Source: Sulfurovum sp. TSL1 (lineage in GTDB: Bacteria; Campylobacterota; Campylobacteria; Campylobacterales; Sulfurovaceae). Taken from it: 64,000 bases of DNA. The translations under genes and the position numbers were made by a program. The notes below the pieces were generated by a model. The model ran no database searches. It was not told where the DNA came from and was given only the letters and a program-made list of their open reading frames with translations. This document shows, piece after piece, positions 8,667-53,545 of the stretch (position 1 is its first letter; every line of letters starts with the position of its first letter). Location: assembly GCF_019972135.1 (NCBI RefSeq), contig NZ_BPFI01000001.1, positions 1,409,106 to 1,473,105 on the forward strand, read 5' to 3'.

Positions 8667-10163
8667 CTGCTTAATGCGATCCACCATCTCTTTGAGTGCT
8701 TTTTTGTCTATCTGGACAGATTTATCACCATTTTTACGGGCATAGAGTTTACGTACCATCTCTTCTATCTCTACATCCTCGCTCATATGACCATACAATA
8801 GTTTCAGTGCTTCTGTCTCGTTATAAGGAGTTGAAGTTCGTCTTGTTACGCGAGGCAACCATCTTAGAACAGGCAGGAACAGCATACCTAGGACAAAGGC
8901 TGCCGCCAACATCCACCATGCTACACTTTTTACCTCTACTTCTTTTTCTACGACCACTTCTTTGGTCTGAACAGGTTGTGATCTATTGGTTTGTACCACA
9001 CCGTTTGTATCGGGTTTGTTGATGGATGCTGATGCAGTAGATGATTGCTTAATGGTAATATCATAGGCATTCACCGTAAGCGCTTTGAGCTGTTTATCTT
9101 TTGGTCTTAACACAGAAAAACTTCGTGCCGGTATGACAAAGTCCTCATCTGCTATAAAGGCAAAACTTTTACTGTAACTGCTGTATAGCTCTCCATCCAC
9201 AACTTTTGTCTCTACTTTAGCTTCATCACTATAGACGGTTACCCTATCGATCTCATATTTTGGAAATTCGAAACTTTCCAGATTACCTTTCCCCTCTATC
9301 TTGACTGTGAGGTTGACCGGTTTGTTGGCTTTTACCTCTTGGGCATCAATGGTGGTGTTGATCGTAAAATCACCTACAAGGTCACTCTCCTGGACCTGAG
9401 GTAGAACTTCTATCTGAAGACTATTCGATGCTACCTGCTTCCATTTTGTACCAAAGGTCATACCGAAAATATCTCTTCTGCCTCTATCGGCTACCCCCAC
9501 TTTGGCATAGGCAGGACTTGCTGTAAAATTCCCTTCTGCTTGTGGGGTAAGAAGATAGCGTACTTCCTGAACTTGATAGTTACCCTTGATATAGGCATTT
9601 TTCTCACCGGCATCTGTTACGGTAAATCCTGGAAAACCAGGCGGTGTATACTGGATATCCTGTGAGAGCCTTACACCATTTTTCAAAGAAAAATAGACCG
9701 TTACCATCAGTGATTCACCTACCATCACTTTCGTTTTATTGGCATGCATCTGCAAGGAGAACATAGCACTGTTCTCTCCTAACGATGCATTGGACTTCAC
9801 GACTTTTATCTCAATGGGCTGGGTGTTATATCTTTTGCCGTCTATCTTCACTTCATAAGAAGGGATGGTGACATTTTTATCGGGTACAAAAGTGAAGGTT
9901 TTTGTCGTTGCGTGCTCGCTTTTCATTGTTCCGTTGATATAGCTATAGGAGCTGCTGCTTCCGGAATGGGCAGCTATGACACTCTGTCCATCGATCATTT
10001 GGATATCCGGAAATTCGGCGTCATCTCCTATGGCTTTAATGCGTAGCTCAACAGTATTACCACTGACAACCTCTGTACTTGATACCGTGGCCTCTACGCC
10101 ATCAGCCCGCATCACTTGTAAAACCAATGTCATCATAGACAATACTTTACCAAGGTTTCGCAT
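8661..10163 (-). CDS. batD: BatD-like protein (BatD family)
   Basis: A 500-residue exported protein with an N-terminal signal segment and long beta-rich, immunoglobulin-like repeats with the family phrase G-E-S-L-M-V-T-V-Y-F-S-L. A transmembrane helix near residue 425 (W-W-M-L-A-A-A-F-V-L-G-M-L-F) is followed by a short cytoplasmic tail. It is the last gene of the moxR-bat operon. I use ATG 10163, with AAGGAG 5 bases before it, rather than the upstream ATG at 10193. It overlaps batC by 17 bp. Bat proteins are linked to stress or oxygen tolerance and envelope assembly in other bacteria; the exact role is unknown. Confidence 0.85.
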   Translation of the reverse strand: MRNLGKVLSMMTLVLQVMRADGVEATVSSTEVVSGNTVELRIKAIGDDAEFPDIQMIDGQSVIAAHSGSSSSYSYINGTMKSEHATTKTFTFVPDKNVTIPSYEVKIDGKRYNTQPIEIKVVKSNASLGENSAMFSLQMHANKTKVMVGESLMVTVYFSLKNGVRLSQDIQYTPPGFPGFTVTDAGEKNAYIKGNYQVQEVRYLLTPQAEGNFTASPAYAKVGVADRGRRDIFGMTFGTKWKQVASNSLQIEVLPQVQESDLVGDFTINTTIDAQEVKANKPVNLTVKIEGKGNLESFEFPKYEIDRVTVYSDEAKVETKVVDGELYSSYSKSFAFIADEDFVIPARSFSVLRPKDKQLKALTVNAYDITIKQSSTASASINKPDTNGVVQTNRSQPVQTKEVVVEKEVEVKSVAWWMLAAAFVLGMLFLPVLRWLPRVTRRTSTPYNETEALKLLYGHMSEDVEIEEMVRKLYARKNGDKSVQIDKKALKEMVDRIKQS

Positions 10164-10992
10164 CTTCACTCCTTTGACCTTTTTTACCTTCACCCATCTG
10201 ATACATCATCGTAGGTGTTTTTTTCTGTCCCATCTTTTTCATAAGACGTTTTAACTCCTGCTCTTTGAGCTTCTCTTCTTTATTCATCTTTTTTTGCTCT
10301 TTGGGCTGATCTGACGCTTTGTCACCTTTTTTCTCTTGGGACTTTTTCTCTTTTTGAGCGTCTGATTTCTCTTTATCCCCCTCTTTTTCCTTCTGTTCTT
10401 CTTTGTTTTTTTGATCTTTCTTTTTTTGATCTTTATTCTGTTTGTCCTGTTTTTTCTTTTGATCTCTGTTTTTTTGGTCCTGTTGTTTCTTCTTTTGGTC
10501 TTTTTGCTCTTGATTCTGATTTTGATCCTGCTTTTGCTTCTCGTCTTTATTTTGTTGCTGATCTTTATTTTGATCCTGTTTCTTTTGCTCTTCTTCTTTT
10601 TGCTTCTGTTTTTTGGCTAACTCAAGGTTGAATCTTGTATCCTCATCCTCTCTCATTTCCAGGGCTTTTTCATACGATGCGATGGCTTTGTCCCACTCTT
10701 TTTTCTGAAACTGACTGTTACCGATATTATGGAGCCTTGTTGCGTCATCTACACCTTCCGCCTTTTCATAGGCTTTGATCGCCTCATCATATTTTTTATC
10801 TTTATAGAACGCATTTCCTATGTCATACTGTTTTTCAGGGCTCTTTACATCTAAACTGTTCAATAAGGCTGCACTCTTACCATACTCTTTCGCCTCATAG
10901 GCCTGCTTTGCTTCTTTGATGGTTTTAAAGTCGGTAAGCCCGGCATGAAGTAAAGTAGCCATACTTATCACCCATAAGATCACTCTTCTCAT
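10147..10992 (-). CDS. batC: BatC-like TPR protein with highly charged tail
   Basis: A 281-residue protein with a signal peptide and about three TPR units (residues 25-130, with G-N-A-F-Y-K-D-K-K-Y-D-E-A-I-K-A-Y as a clear helix pair). A tail of about 120 residues follows, made almost only of Lys, Gln, Glu, Asp and Asn. The tail is encoded by a purine-rich low-complexity DNA stretch (about 10250-10610). TPR proteins with such tails are standard BatC/BatE partners of the two VWA proteins. It overlaps batB by 4 bp. The tail is likely disordered. Confidence 0.85.
   Translation of the reverse strand: MRRVILWVISMATLLHAGLTDFKTIKEAKQAYEAKEYGKSAALLNSLDVKSPEKQYDIGNAFYKDKKYDEAIKAYEKAEGVDDATRLHNIGNSQFQKKEWDKAIASYEKALEMREDEDTRFNLELAKKQKQKEEEQKKQDQNKDQQQNKDEKQKQDQNQNQEQKDQKKKQQDQKNRDQKKKQDKQNKDQKKKDQKNKEEQKEKEGDKEKSDAQKEKKSQEKKGDKASDQPKEQKKMNKEEKLKEQELKRLMKKMGQKKTPTMMYQMGEGKKGQRSEDAKPW
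10250..10612 (-). repeat. Low-complexity purine-rich tract inside batC
   Basis: Repeated short units on the coding strand made of CAAAA, AAAGAT and CAAGAT-type triplets encode the Lys/Gln/Asp-rich tail of BatC. The pattern is irregular rather than a clean microsatellite, but such tracts are prone to in-frame length change between strains. Confidence 0.6.
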
Positions 10993-48572: not shown

Positions 48573-49159
48573 TCTTCATTCTTTATATAGAGGTAATTTC
48601 GTTGATTTTTTTGTACTATATCATATCTTAGCTGATGTTGCACATCTTCTATCTCGTCAAATACCCGAGATCCTTTGTAAAAAAGATATTCGGTATGGGA
48701 ATCACTTATGTTTTCGGTCAATTCCAAAAGCAGTTTTGTGTTGGTGACGGCACGTGAACTGATCATATCGAACGCTTCATGCTCTACTGTTTCAACGCGT
48801 TTAGCTTCTACCGTGACATTGGAAAGTCCCAAATCTATGGCTGCATACTTTAAAAAAGAGACACGTTTTTTCAGCGGCTCAGCCAACACTACTGTAGTAT
48901 CTGGTAATGCAATGCCAAGTACCAACCCGGGAAAACCTGCTCCTGTCCCTACATCCAAGAGTGTTTTGGGTTTTTTTATAAATGTCAAAGGATACAGTGA
49001 ATCGACGATATTGACATAGATCGCATCGATCGTTTTGGCTCCCGTAAGATTATGGATCTGGTTCCATTCATGCAAAAGTGAAGCGAAACGCTCCAACTTG
49101 ATGATGATATCACTTGATAAAATGATCCCCTCTGCATCTAAATATTGTGATAGGTTCAA
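48569..49159 (-). CDS. rsmG: 16S rRNA (guanine527-N7)-methyltransferase
   Basis: SAM-dependent methyltransferase of 196 residues acting on G527 of 16S rRNA. Motif I reads [13 protein letters not shown] and the H-N-L-T-G-A-K region precedes it, as in GidB/RsmG. It overlaps the PqqD-like gene by 4 bp upstream and the small zinc protein by 4 bp downstream. Confidence 0.95.
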
Positions 49160-49434
49160 TACTTTTCCACCTTCACCAACCCACTCTTGAGTAATTTATC
49201 TACAAACTCAGAAAGATCTTTCTCTAACACTTCTTCTTCCACATCATACTGTTCCAACAGTGTTTTAAAAACCTCTTTCAATGTTTCTTTCTCCTGCATT
49301 GCCTGCCAGATAGCTGTACCTACTTCATCCAGTCCAAAGTAGTTCTCACTTTCCATATCAAGCAGTACCATCTCACCATCTACTTCCTGGGCAAATACTG
49401 TATCTGAAAATGTGATTTTTTGATCAAGATCCAT
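49156..49434 (-). CDS. PqqD-like protein (RiPP recognition element fold)
   Basis: A 92-residue protein with the PqqD pattern: an early beta region, [21 protein letters not shown] (residues about 26-46) and a helical C-terminal half. In RiPP systems this winged-helix fold binds leader peptides. An HprK-like gene, the usual partner in many genomes, is at 52634-53545. I use the second ATG, with GAGGA about 10 bases upstream. It heads the rsmG operon and has its own promoter. Confidence 0.85.
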
Positions 49435-49467
49435 ATTGTTTCTTTTCCTCATTGACTTTGTTGCAAA

Positions 49468-49579: not shown

Positions 49580-50455
49580 CTATTGTCCCATAGGTCTAGG
49601 CAATATTGTGAGATCGACCTGAGTGTCCATTTCTGAGGCATACTGTTTGAACGATGCACCTTTGTAAAGCGCACTCGATTTAGCTGATCTCTCCTGTACC
49701 TTTTCCGGTACTTTTTCAGTGTCCAGAACCCATCTGAAGGTTCGTGCCGTTTGACCATTCATGTTGAAGGTATAGCTTTGGAGTTTACCCTCTGCATAGG
49801 CAGAGACCAAAACCTCATTGCTTTCAGCATCCACCAATTGCATTCTTCCCATCAAATCCTCATCTGTCTGAGGTGTCTGATCAAAACGTGTTCTTCCCGT
49901 TGCATCTGTATGTGAAGTGACTGTATAAGCATTCCAACGTAGCGTCACTGTACGCTCAGGATTTGAGTTGACTGTAAAAGTCCATTCATCATACTTCAGC
50001 TCTGGATTGTGAAAATCTGTGACATAGTTCTTACCCTCTTGTGAAAAATTCACAGAGAGAAAAGGGAGAAGCTCTCCTTCACCATTTTTTACAAATGGTC
50101 GAGGCATCGACTTAAGATCATAGGCATCAACTTCGTTGCTTGCAACTTCCAATTGTCCAAACCTGTCATTGTCAAAGAGAAGTTTGCTTTCAGGATCTTC
50201 AGCAACGATCTGTACTGACCACTGTGCTGTCAACTGATCAGGCGTGGATGTATCCCCACCATCGCCACTTTCTGAAGTATCCATACTATCTGACGTATCA
50301 GTATTGGAAGGAGTATCCATGCTAGATGGAGGAGTATCCGTACTAGGGTTATAATTCCCGTCATCCGTAGATATTGATCCACCACCACAGCCAAGTAGAA
50401 GTAAGCTTGCTGCCATTACTGCTAAGATATTATATTTTTTCATAAAATTCATCAT
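49580..50455 (-). CDS. Lipoprotein with Asp/Ser/Thr-rich linker, unknown function
   Basis: About 291 residues. A signal peptide ends in a lipobox (L-L-L-L-G-C-G-G-G) and is followed by a stretch of about 50 residues of Asp, Ser, Thr, Pro and Gly, a typical flexible spacer for surface lipoproteins. The rest is a beta-rich domain with an aromatic W-T-F-T-V-N-S and R-W-N-A-Y-T pattern and no recognised family. The start is ATG 50455 with GGGAG 6 bases upstream; other in-frame starts lie at 50458, 50452 and 50443. It is the last gene of the cassette. Confidence 0.75.
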   Translation of the reverse strand: MMNFMKKYNILAVMAASLLLLGCGGGSISTDDGNYNPSTDTPPSSMDTPSNTDTSDSMDTSESGDGGDTSTPDQLTAQWSVQIVAEDPESKLLFDNDRFGQLEVASNEVDAYDLKSMPRPFVKNGEGELLPFLSVNFSQEGKNYVTDFHNPELKYDEWTFTVNSNPERTVTLRWNAYTVTSHTDATGRTRFDQTPQTDEDLMGRMQLVDAESNEVLVSAYAEGKLQSYTFNMNGQTARTFRWVLDTEKVPEKVQERSAKSSALYKGASFKQYASEMDTQVDLTILPRPMGQ

Positions 50456-50465
50456 CACCTACTCC

Positions 50466-51920
50466 CTAATTTGCTTTGCCGTTAGGTACAATCAAATTTA
50501 TCTCTTTCCCAATACTATTGGTACAATTCATCTCAACCCAGAATCCATCAAAATAGTCAATTGAATGAGGCAATAAGCTGGTGTCAGTTCCTATTATGTC
50601 GTATCCATTGTTACCAACATTGTATATCCAAATCTGGTTGCTCATTATATTGTTCTTAAACGCATCATCCGGATGCATTACCGTTATTACTCCAGTGTCC
50701 AGATCCTTCACTTCAACTCTGTAATCCCCCCAGTATGTCTTGGTAGAACTAACGGATCCGACAAGATTATAGAGATATGCATTCGTATCACCTTCAGTAC
50801 AACTCTGTAGCGCATAGCGATAGCAACCTTTCTTTGTTGTAGTACATCCATCCTTTGTCTTCATCTTATGATCCCAGACTACCGGGTTCAATCCAAGCAC
50901 CTTTAATTCAGTATCTTTTATTGTTCCTAGTAAGTATCCACGGTTTTTCTCTAATTTCACACCCGGATTAAGTTTGGTATAATAACGTTCATGCGTTGAC
51001 GCATTATAATCACGTTGATAGACTATCCACTCTCTACCATATGTAGAAGTGTTCAAATCATCTCCAAAAAAATCAGCTACTGTAACTGGGTTAGTTGCAC
51101 TGATTTCTGCTGGTGCTTTAACCATATGCCAACCTACTGTCATATTAGGACCAGCTGTCATATTAGGACCCACTTCAAGGAATCCAGAAAAGTCAGTAAA
51201 GATCAAATACTCTAAATCAACATTGATGTTCGTACTCATATCTAAAACAAGTGATTCAGCAGAAATAGCACCCCATAGATCTATTTTTAAATTATTCACT
51301 GCATACTTAGAATAGAGATACCCACTCATACATGCACCATTGATAAACGGATCAATATCTTCTATATACATAGCAAATTTATCCGGATTTAGATAAGGAA
51401 TGCCTGCTTCACAGTTGTTCTCACCATTCGTGAGGTCAACTTCCGATTTTACCATAAGCGTAACCGAACCGTTGGTATCTGCCGGTACCACCTGACCATT
51501 CACTATATACGTATCGATCTTGTAAAGACCGGGATTCATGATCAGTTTACCAGGTTTACTTCCGGAAGCATTTCCCGCTCCATCAACCACAATGCGTTTA
51601 TAAACACCAGGGTCAATAGTTTGTACATTATCCTTTTGGACACGGATATTTGGAGCACGTTTAAAGTCTGTTGCCAAAAAATCTGCATCGATCATAGCAT
51701 ATGGCGCCAAAACTCTAGATGTCAGTGCTGTTATCGTACTACATGGAGTGGCTACACCGTCTTCTATACAGTTGGCACTATCCAAAATATTATCGACACT
51801 CAAGTCAATATTTACATTAATACCGCTTGGAAATATTTCTGTTGCTTTAACAGCAAAAGCTGATGTCGAAAACACACCCATTATACCCAACAGTATAATT
51901 ATTTTACTACCTCTGATCAA
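50466..51920 (-). CDS. Exported 484-residue protein, unknown function
   Basis: A signal peptide (M-I-R-G-S-K-I-I-I-L-L-G-I-M-G-V-F...A-F-A) precedes a long beta-rich mature protein with several cysteine pairs and Asn/Asp-rich segments; no family is recognised. A short repeat G-P-N-M-T-A / G-P-N-M-T-V lies near residue 255. It starts with TTG at 51920, which overlaps the TGA stop of a 13-codon mini-ORF as TTGA and lacks a well-spaced Shine-Dalgarno sequence of its own, so translation is probably coupled. The lipoprotein gene follows closely. It could be a surface or secreted adhesin-like protein. Confidence 0.75.
   Translation of the reverse strand: MIRGSKIIILLGIMGVFSTSAFAVKATEIFPSGINVNIDLSVDNILDSANCIEDGVATPCSTITALTSRVLAPYAMIDADFLATDFKRAPNIRVQKDNVQTIDPGVYKRIVVDGAGNASGSKPGKLIMNPGLYKIDTYIVNGQVVPADTNGSVTLMVKSEVDLTNGENNCEAGIPYLNPDKFAMYIEDIDPFINGACMSGYLYSKYAVNNLKIDLWGAISAESLVLDMSTNINVDLEYLIFTDFSGFLEVGPNMTAGPNMTVGWHMVKAPAEISATNPVTVADFFGDDLNTSTYGREWIVYQRDYNASTHERYYTKLNPGVKLEKNRGYLLGTIKDTELKVLGLNPVVWDHKMKTKDGCTTTKKGCYRYALQSCTEGDTNAYLYNLVGSVSSTKTYWGDYRVEVKDLDTGVITVMHPDDAFKNNIMSNQIWIYNVGNNGYDIIGTDTSLLPHSIDYFDGFWVEMNCTNSIGKEINLIVPNGKAN
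51135..51170 (-). repeat. 18-bp tandem repeat inside the exported protein gene
   Basis: Two near-perfect 18-bp units (core GTCATATTAGGACC on the plus strand) encode G-P-N-M-T-A and G-P-N-M-T-V side by side. The unit keeps the frame, so copy changes would lengthen or shorten the protein by six residues. Confidence 0.6.
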
Positions 51921-51958
51921 ACTCTAAGAACGTTGCTGATTTTATTAATTCTAATCAA
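51917..51958 (-). CDS. Coupled mini-ORF 3 (13 codons)
   Basis: TTG at 51958 opens M-I-R-I-N-K-I-S-N-V-L-R-V, a near copy of mini-ORF 2, and stops at TGA 51917-51919, overlapping the TTG start of the exported protein at 51920. The exported protein begins M-I-R-G-S-K, clearly the same ancestral sequence. Confidence 0.35.
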   Translation of the reverse strand: MIRINKISNVLRV

Positions 51959-51996
51959 ACTCTTAGAACGTTGCTGACTTTATTATATCTGATCAA
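51955..51996 (-). CDS. Coupled mini-ORF 2 (13 codons)
   Basis: TTG at 51996 opens M-I-R-Y-N-K-V-S-N-V-L-R-V and stops at TGA 51955-51957, which overlaps the TTG of the next mini-ORF. Its start overlaps the stop of mini-ORF 1 in the same TTGA way. Translation is plausible only by coupling; the peptide itself has no recognised function. Confidence 0.35.
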   Translation of the reverse strand: MIRYNKVSNVLRV

Positions 51997-52025
51997 ACTC
52001 GTCTAACGTTGCTGATTCTCATCAT
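51993..52025 (-). CDS. Coupled mini-ORF 1 (10 codons), first link of the chain
   Basis: ATG at 52025 (or 52022) encodes M-M-R-I-S-N-V-R-R-V and stops at TGA 51993-51995. A strong GGGAG lies 3 bases before the first ATG and 6 before the second, the only good ribosome-binding site between the 64-residue peptide gene and the exported protein. It may be the entry point for ribosomes that translate the exported protein by reinitiation. Confidence 0.4.
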   Translation of the reverse strand: MMRISNVRRV

Positions 52026-52069
52026 ACTCTCCCTTCAATGTATTTTAATTTTTTACAAACCTTTACCCT

Positions 52070-52264
52070 CTAACCAAAGTTCTGTGGTTCATTTATAGGG
52101 CAGTCAAAAGGATCAGTAGCACAACTAGCAGCTGCAATTGTTGGCTTTGCCAAAGAACCCAACACTATCAATGCCGGTGCTTTGTAGAGCGCCCTTTTTA
52201 AAAATGTCCGTCTCTCTTTTTTTAATTCTTTGTCTGTAACTTTGTTAGCTTTTTCTAATTTCAC
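52070..52264 (-). CDS. Small peptide with Tat-like signal, first gene after the riboswitch
   Basis: A 64-residue protein: a charged N-terminus (residues 1-18), the twin-arginine motif E-R-R-T-F-L-K-R-A, a hydrophobic stretch A-P-A-L-I-V-L-G-S-L-A and a probable A-x-A site near T-I-A-A-A-S. The mature end would be about 18 residues with two cysteines (C-A-T-D-P-F-D-C). The start is GTG 52264 with AGGG 6 bases before it. It could be a Tat-exported peptide or a RiPP-like precursor, given nearby PqqD- and HprK-like genes, but neither is shown. Confidence 0.7.
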   Translation of the reverse strand: MKLEKANKVTDKELKKERRTFLKRALYKAPALIVLGSLAKPTIAAASCATDPFDCPINEPQNFG

Positions 52265-52382: not shown

Positions 52383-52420
52383 TTATATTTATACATATTT
52401 TAATAAGTAAAAATTCATTG

Positions 52421-52516
52421 GGCAACCTGGCGATCTTCTCATTTGCTATAAAGTTATAGCATCAAAGACCCATGGCTTTCTGACCCCGCCTCACGACAGG
52501 TGTAGCATTATCAATT
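52421..52516 (-). ncRNA. c-di-GMP-I (GEMM) riboswitch aptamer candidate
   Basis: Reading 5'-3' on the minus strand: TGATAATGCTACACC, a stem CCTGTC-GTGA-GGCGGG capped by a GNRA tetraloop (P2), GTCAGAAAGCC matching the GACGCAAAGCC core, GGGTCTT pairing with AAGATC (P3) around an inner hairpin GCTATA-ACTT-TATAGC, and the 3' core GATCGCCAGGTTGCC matching GATAGCCGGGTTGCC of the family. The 5' core is GCTACACC where GGCAAACC is usual, so ligand choice is not certain. The RNA lies 156 bases before a small secreted-peptide gene. Confidence 0.8.
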
Positions 52517-52633: not shown

Positions 52634-53545
52634 TTAACTATTTTCTGTGACTTCATTGTATGATACTATTGTTTCATACACTTCATCCAGCCTCTTGAGG
52701 TCCCAGGGTATGCTGACCTGATACACGGGTATATGTTTTGACATCTGTGTAAAGAAATCAAAGCGTTCCTTTTTCATAAAAGAAAAATCGATAAAAGTGC
52801 TATAGTGAAACGCTTTGAACTTCTCTATGCCTTTGAGTTCATTGATCTCCACTATTGCATCGGGTTCACATTTTTTCAACAGATACACTGCATGAAGCGG
52901 TTTCGGTTCTGTTGCAAAGTTTTTTACCGGGTAGCCCAGTGCCTCTAACTCTCTGTAAGGTCTATGAAAAGGGTAAGAAGCGATAGCATAGTATCTATCA
53001 CCACGTTTATTGATAGCCATGGAGTCATCTGAGAGCATCGTATGCCCTTTTTGTATGAAGTAGTCTGTCAATGTAGACTTTCCTCCAAAAGAGAAAGCCG
53101 AAAAAAGTACAGGTTTTCCTTTGATCTCAACAGCCCCGACATGCAAGATACGATACTTTCTTTCAAGTTCCAACACCAGTGGGAAAAAAGTGTGATAGAT
53201 CCAAAAACGAAGTCGTTCGGGTGTGTAGTTCTTACCTTTTCTGTAGATGATCTTTTTGTCTGATCCCTCCCAGATAAGCGCCACTACCTCTTTGATCTCC
53301 AATGCCCAGGTGAACTCTCCATCAGCTTTTCCAAAAGGATGCATACTATGGTATCGTGCTTTCTGTCCTGACATATCAACCCAATCAGTCTTAAGGGGGA
53401 AGTCATCCAATAGTGAAGGTTTAGAAGATGCTATGACCTGTATCGTTGGATTTTCAGGATACAGTGAAGGATCAGAAGGAAAAGAGAGAAACTCTTTTTG
53501 TAACACAGGCTCACTCTTAAAATCAAAACGGTGACCAAAGACCAT
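52634..53545 (-). CDS. HprK-like serine kinase family protein
   Basis: A 303-residue protein whose C-terminal half resembles HPr kinase: I-L-H-V-G-A-V-E-I then a P-loop F-S-F-G-G-K-S-T-L (about 151-159) and L-S-D-D-S-M-A-I (Asp173-Asp174). Its N-terminal half is not the normal HprK domain. HprK-like proteins occur next to PqqD-like proteins in several RiPP and related systems, including lasso-peptide loci. The start has AAGGA 5 bases upstream. It is separated from ribA by a hairpin. Its substrate is unknown. Confidence 0.78.
   Translation of the reverse strand: MVFGHRFDFKSEPVLQKEFLSFPSDPSLYPENPTIQVIASSKPSLLDDFPLKTDWVDMSGQKARYHSMHPFGKADGEFTWALEIKEVVALIWEGSDKKIIYRKGKNYTPERLRFWIYHTFFPLVLELERKYRILHVGAVEIKGKPVLFSAFSFGGKSTLTDYFIQKGHTMLSDDSMAINKRGDRYYAIASYPFHRPYRELEALGYPVKNFATEPKPLHAVYLLKKCEPDAIVEINELKGIEKFKAFHYSTFIDFSFMKKERFDFFTQMSKHIPVYQVSIPWDLKRLDEVYETIVSYNEVTENS

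Follow-up and report, generated by a model that had tools for sequence, protein, structure and literature searches.

The riboswitch-headed operon and its exported protein

The window, i.e., the whole stretch of 64,000 nucleotides from Sulfurovum sp. TSL1 analyzed in this study, carries on its minus strand an apparent operon consisting of a riboswitch, a small ORF, a leader of chained mini-ORFs as its third element, and genes for an exported protein, a lipoprotein, a PqqD-like protein, and RsmG. At its head, a c-di-GMP-I riboswitch aptamer was identified (52417..52516; Rfam RF01051, 52.1 bits at a gathering score of 35), which also scored 56.4 bits with RF03167, under the gathering score of 59 for that family. 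An HprK-like kinase gene (52634-53545, minus strand) is located upstream of this block. The small ORF (52070..52264, minus strand), taken from the ORF list, encodes 64 aa, and its stop lies 44 bases upstream of mini-ORF 1. Reading by eye revealed the motifs RRTFLK and YxxPxLxxxGxxxxxT, the latter, present as YKAPALIVLGSLAKPT, being presumably of the lasso-leader type; a twin-arginine-like RRTFLK would be unusual on such a leader. Relatives of this ORF were found in 25 of the 78 genus genomes, many of them within similar clusters.

The gene for the exported protein (484 aa; 50466..51920, minus strand) starts at a TTG without a Shine-Dalgarno sequence, and its product displays the signal peptide MIRGSKIIILLGIMGVFSTSAFA. 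The C-terminal half (about 260-480; query 263-480) is common to surface-type proteins of congeners, the N-termini being variable, and LamG-type or FG-GAP domains were present in the two related exported proteins examined, those of the genomes G016 and G003. Judged from these similarities, a surface or adhesin-like role is likely; close homologs were not confirmed in a scan of genome contigs. On the same strand follow a lipoprotein-like gene (49580..50458, from the ORF list), found at the same position in congeners, the PqqD-like gene (49156-49452), and rsmG, whose start codon lies in a TTGA shared with the PqqD-like gene (49156-49159) and which has its own Shine-Dalgarno sequence (-7.5).

The same gene families recur in congeners between ribA and rsmG, and several congeners also harbor an ABC transporter, a lasso B2-type protein, and an asparagine-synthase-type cyclase (families named for G016). 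A lasso-peptide-like set is present here in the form of the leader-motif small ORF, the HprK-like kinase, and the PqqD-like protein; lasso B2 and cyclase genes are additionally present in congeners, but neither adjoins this locus. Riboswitches of the c-di-GMP-I type precede the exported gene or the operon in G003, G004, G012, G016, G020, and G099, with two in tandem in G016. The sister species G003 revealed a near-identical riboswitch, a homologous small ORF, the exported protein, and the lipoprotein, but no repeat. Its kinase gene lies after the riboswitch-headed block, while it lies before the block in the genome studied here.

Anatomy of the repeat array and the mini-ORF chain

TRF detected a tandem repeat with a period of 38 bp and 3.1 copies (51901..52017, minus strand; score 157), within which lie the chained mini-ORFs and the beginning of the exported gene. 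Along the minus strand, the order is a Shine-Dalgarno sequence, mini-ORFs 1, 2, and 3, and then the exported ORF of 484 codons. The Shine-Dalgarno sequence, GAAGGGAGA (52028..52036), forms a duplex of -8.7 kcal/mol with the 16S tail. Mini-ORF 1 (51993..52025; ATG ATG, MMRISNVRRV) starts at ATG 52025 or at ATG 52022, the latter being better spaced from the Shine-Dalgarno sequence, and represents a shortened first copy of the unit with three codons fewer than a full one. Its TGA at 51993 overlaps the TTG of mini-ORF 2 (51955..51996), which runs from TTG 51996 to TGA 51955, encodes MIRYNKVSNVLRV, and has a TTGA overlap at either end. Mini-ORF 3 (51917..51958; TTG 51958 to TGA 51917) encodes MIRINKISNVLRV and shares the 4-nt TTGA at 51920-51917 with the exported gene, so that all three junctions (mini-ORF 1/2, 2/3, and 3/exported gene) are stop/start overlaps of the form TTGA. 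Direct reading and a script both returned this arrangement. Thus, the chain of three mini-ORFs leading through TTGA overlaps into the exported protein exists as described in the first-pass annotation, and the arithmetic given there for the unit, 38 = 42 - 4, was correct. The setting of the leader, an operon opening with the riboswitch and the small ORF, had been overlooked there.

A 26-mer of the repeat unit was found twice in the window at an expectation of 0.00. Since the last unit takes in the first codons of the exported gene (MIRGSK, compared with MIRxNK in the mini-ORFs), the earlier suggestion that the array arose by tandem duplication of a gene start is supported. Elsewhere in this genome the 38-bp unit was not found, which makes the array a single locus; the one other match to the repeat was a 55-bp similarity at another gene start that did not contain the unit.

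Some further repeats were noticed in this genome. L002 1056-1526 (G000:C2), next to an amino-acid-permease-like gene, encodes a repetitive, methionine-rich secreted protein of the GMMGNQGMMQ type in which cysteines are clustered (CCCCCC). Short imperfect tandem repeats lie at 10400-10618 of the window, where a gene for a TPR-like protein (10147-10992) encodes its K/Q/N-rich tail, and a 111-bp tandem repeat with an in-frame period and about 3.2 copies (TRF score 618) was detected at L143 13935-14292 (G000:C1, about 823935-824292).

Translation of the exported gene

Mini-ORF 1 had been singled out in the first-pass annotation as the only one with a strong ribosome-binding site, and this proved to be the case: compared with -8.7 kcal/mol at mini-ORF 1, the Shine-Dalgarno energy at TTG 51996, 51958, and 51920 was only -2.4 to -2.5 kcal/mol, and this at zero spacing. 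At a spacing of at least 2 nt, TTG 51920 reached 0 kcal/mol. The exported frame cannot begin further upstream than TTG 51920, since a TAG stands in frame two codons before it. Starting at TTG 51920 yields a complete signal peptide, while the internal starts ATG 51881 and GTG 51875 (-3.8) would remove it or cut into it. Hence, no start elsewhere with a ribosome-binding site of its own keeps the signal peptide, a point on which the earlier reading had been made to depend. Generally, genes of this genome mostly possess a Shine-Dalgarno sequence, with a median of -5.7 kcal/mol over 359 gene calls whose starts were picked partly by that energy, which favors strong sites. Overlaps of the NTGA type are ordinary, with 19 ATGA, 3 GTGA, and 1 TTGA in 464 kb.

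Since the exported gene has no usable Shine-Dalgarno sequence and no other start retains the signal peptide, serial termination-reinitiation is probably the likeliest route into it, and also the most economical one. To this extent the proposal of a reinitiation leader is supported; selection as a chain is not (see below). In E. coli, an ORF without a Shine-Dalgarno sequence was read only by ribosomes finishing the upstream ORF, at AUGA and UAAUG junctions alike, and reinitiation at the UAAUG junction had an efficiency of about 25% (PMC9955659). Of 14 overlapping pairs tested in another study, 13 were coupled, and they differed in how far they required the Shine-Dalgarno sequence: its removal lowered reinitiation by 60-90% for three E. 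coli pairs, and for one no reinitiation was left (PMC6728339). By our own extrapolation, three links at about 25% each would pass about 1.6% of the ribosomes; restarts at TTG may do worse than this figure, and without a Shine-Dalgarno sequence they should be inefficient.

Three other mechanisms were considered and rejected. RNA structure does not appear as the main actor, the leader folding no better than shuffled sequences (z of -0.50, -0.69, +1.48, and +0.40). Programmed -1 frameshifting at GAG TTT GA would lack a slippery heptamer and face stops arranged in series, and read-through from mini-ORF 1 into the exported gene, which is in the same frame, would meet several in-frame stops.

Origin of the chain and its interpretation

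The chain is less surprising than it first appears. Translation from a start codon within NTGA runs in frame into the TGA of the following copy if and only if the period P is 2 mod 3, and at such a period a single NTGA motif links every copy, so that three links amount to one event and not to three. In simulations, 33% of random 38-bp units of this base composition were self-linking, compared with 0% at periods of 36, 37, 39, and 40 (0 or 1 mod 3). The chain thus follows from one duplication with a period of 2 mod 3, and its treatment as several coincidences is not supported. When neutral mutation was simulated at a level matching the differences observed between the copies, the three-link chain survived in 51% of the arrays, so that intact frames are no evidence of selection; nor was selection on the mini-ORF frames detectable in the differences between repeat copies. 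The notion that the chain was selected as a chain is therefore not supported, and neither is selection of the leader as a regulator.

At least three small ORFs chained into any ORF of at least 80 codons were found at about 20 places in 464 kb of this genome, for which 20 stretches (400 kb) were sampled; these are taken to lie mostly antisense or inside genes, one of them having been checked. One other chain was seen in which three mini-ORFs, each shorter than about 20 codons, run into an ORF of 150 codons or more; it sits within a larger upstream ORF, and its gene has its own strong Shine-Dalgarno sequence. The unusual part is the combination, in that a repeat array opens with a strong Shine-Dalgarno sequence, closes without one, and reaches through its last link a real gene whose product has a signal peptide.

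Comparison with relatives, using one genome per species, did not reveal the 38-bp repeat in 78 genus genomes other than this one, and a sample of 399 genomes of the order yielded nothing except near-matches at background level, which were about as frequent as with a reversed control pattern. It was also not found in genome and viral contig collections. Because the repeat was not found in relatives, the chain is, on sequence comparison, a derived feature, seen in one genome. In G003, the exported gene begins at the end of the small ORF, directly abutting it. Of 12 relatives, most have an exported gene that begins with ATG or GTG and is preceded by a Shine-Dalgarno sequence of its own, G020 being a weak case.

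With regard to known systems, the chain is a natural example of a known trick, termination-reinitiation, and not a new mechanism. The closest precedent are the mycobacterial interspersed repetitive units (MIRUs), reportedly described by Supply et al. in 1997, of which the array appears to be a variant of independent origin, with TTG starts and confined to one locus. MIRU lengths, 77 and 53 bp, likewise leave a remainder of 2 on division by 3. MIRUs are short repeats, as are the units of the array, with an internal ORF joined to the next gene through a stop/start overlap of -4 nt (review PMC12548453), and their copy number differs between isolates at some loci (PMC2734929). If the array functions at all, it would do so in the manner of a MIRU. 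However, MIRUs are interspersed at about 41 loci and apparently mobile, while the array lies at one locus, belongs to an organism that is not related, has TTG as its start codon, and includes the very start of the gene; lacking this defining interspersion, the array was rejected as a true MIRU. Operon overlaps of the ATGA, GTGA, or TTGA type that undergo termination-reinitiation share the 4-nt stop/start overlap and depend on the upstream frame (PMC6728339, PMC9955659), a dependence which we infer here. The stop/start overlap (NTGA or TRATG) that marks this class occurs as TTGA at all three junctions, and TTG 51920 has no strong independent ribosome-binding site, a feature that supports membership without strictly defining it. 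In known pairs, however, the partners are real genes, as a rule linked by a single overlap and mostly with a Shine-Dalgarno sequence ahead of the second, whereas three mini-ORFs without one are joined here. In natural uORFs and synthetic bicistronic designs, a short ORF with a strong ribosome-binding site feeds the next gene (PMC12548453); there is one short ORF in those cases. The array also begins with such an ORF, but it continues in series, and this should reduce output instead of increasing it. In M. tuberculosis, VNTR3239 upstream of fpg1 is a tandem repeat that likewise ends at the start codon and correlates with the mRNA level; the effect there is on mRNA, and no reinitiation chain is reported in the parts of that source consulted (PMC2734929). 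The array does not correspond to a phase-variable contingency repeat, in which a different repeat number turns the frame ON or OFF, given that with NTGA self-linking at a period of 2 mod 3 the link to the gene persists whatever the number of copies. In the literature searched, which was thin in subscription journals, we found no report of mini-ORFs chained in series through duplication of the start of the very gene they precede.

Starting from the anatomy of the array, the lack of another usable start, the absence from relatives, and the riboswitch-headed operon, all established here, we slightly favor a lineage-specific translational leader acting by serial reinitiation as the best explanation. 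Its main rival, which we consider rather unlikely, is a neutral minisatellite, i.e., a recent accident of slippage or recombination whose mini-ORFs do nothing, with weak direct initiation at TTG 51920 or an internal ATG or GTG. That a third of random 38-bp units self-link, that half of neutrally mutated arrays retain the chain, that the array occurs in one genome only, and that chains of small ORFs are common by chance all speak for such an accident; however, it would have to make do with a TTG 51920 without a Shine-Dalgarno sequence or with internal starts that drop the signal peptide, and the strong Shine-Dalgarno sequence of mini-ORF 1 would be wasted.

Two further explanations seem less plausible still. 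The repeats could act at the level of DNA or transcription, as regulator sites or an internal promoter with incidental frames, for which the short palindromes TGATCA and AACGTT in the unit and weak promoter-like matches in the array (TATAAT in unit 2; TTGATC-17-TATACT at 51920-51892) might be cited. Such matches numbered 5 compared with 4.6 in shuffled sequence and were thus not in excess, the unit occurs nowhere else in the genome, and even with a promoter inside the array, the gene would lack a ribosome-binding site, so that we regard this reading as very unlikely. We give a little less credence again to a decaying gene start, once read through from the ATG of mini-ORF 1 (MMRISNVRRV-LIRGSKIIILLG...) and then severed by the duplications together with a frame-breaking change, with the exported gene now silent. 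Though the only ribosome-binding site is at mini-ORF 1, in the frame of the exported gene (105 bases apart), and the joined product would be a credible signal peptide, the frame of 484 codons is intact and closes with the C-terminus of the family, and at a period of 38 a one-copy ancestor would already have been out of frame.

In the serial-reinitiation leader, a 38-bp stretch over the start of the exported gene would have been tandemly duplicated, and with a period of 2 mod 3 and TTGA in the unit each copy would have become a mini-ORF whose TGA overlaps the next TTG. Ribosomes would load at the sole Shine-Dalgarno sequence, translate mini-ORF 1, and be carried by termination-reinitiation via mini-ORFs 2 and 3 to the exported TTG. 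As ribosomes would be lost at each restart, the leader should act as an attenuator with a strength set by the number of units, and the gene would stay connected at any such number. Both this ribosome route and any effect of copy number are put forward here as suggestions from the arrangement of the locus. A more far-reaching version, a frame-proof translational rheostat in which every copy number is functional and each unit multiplies output by a fixed fraction, appears quite doubtful to us, and the same low weight is given to its corollary that slippage tunes a c-di-GMP-controlled surface protein in steps and not on/off.

If ribosomes indeed walk three restarts, the locus would be a natural series circuit for termination-reinitiation, and one to several near-identical junctions would let the efficiency per junction be measured directly, including that of TTG restarts without a Shine-Dalgarno sequence. 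Beyond this genome, the analysis yields a simple rule, namely that tandem duplications of gene starts with a period of 2 mod 3 tend toward self-linking chains of mini-ORFs. By this rule, such leaders could arise repeatedly, as MIRUs suggest, and they can be searched for in any genome.
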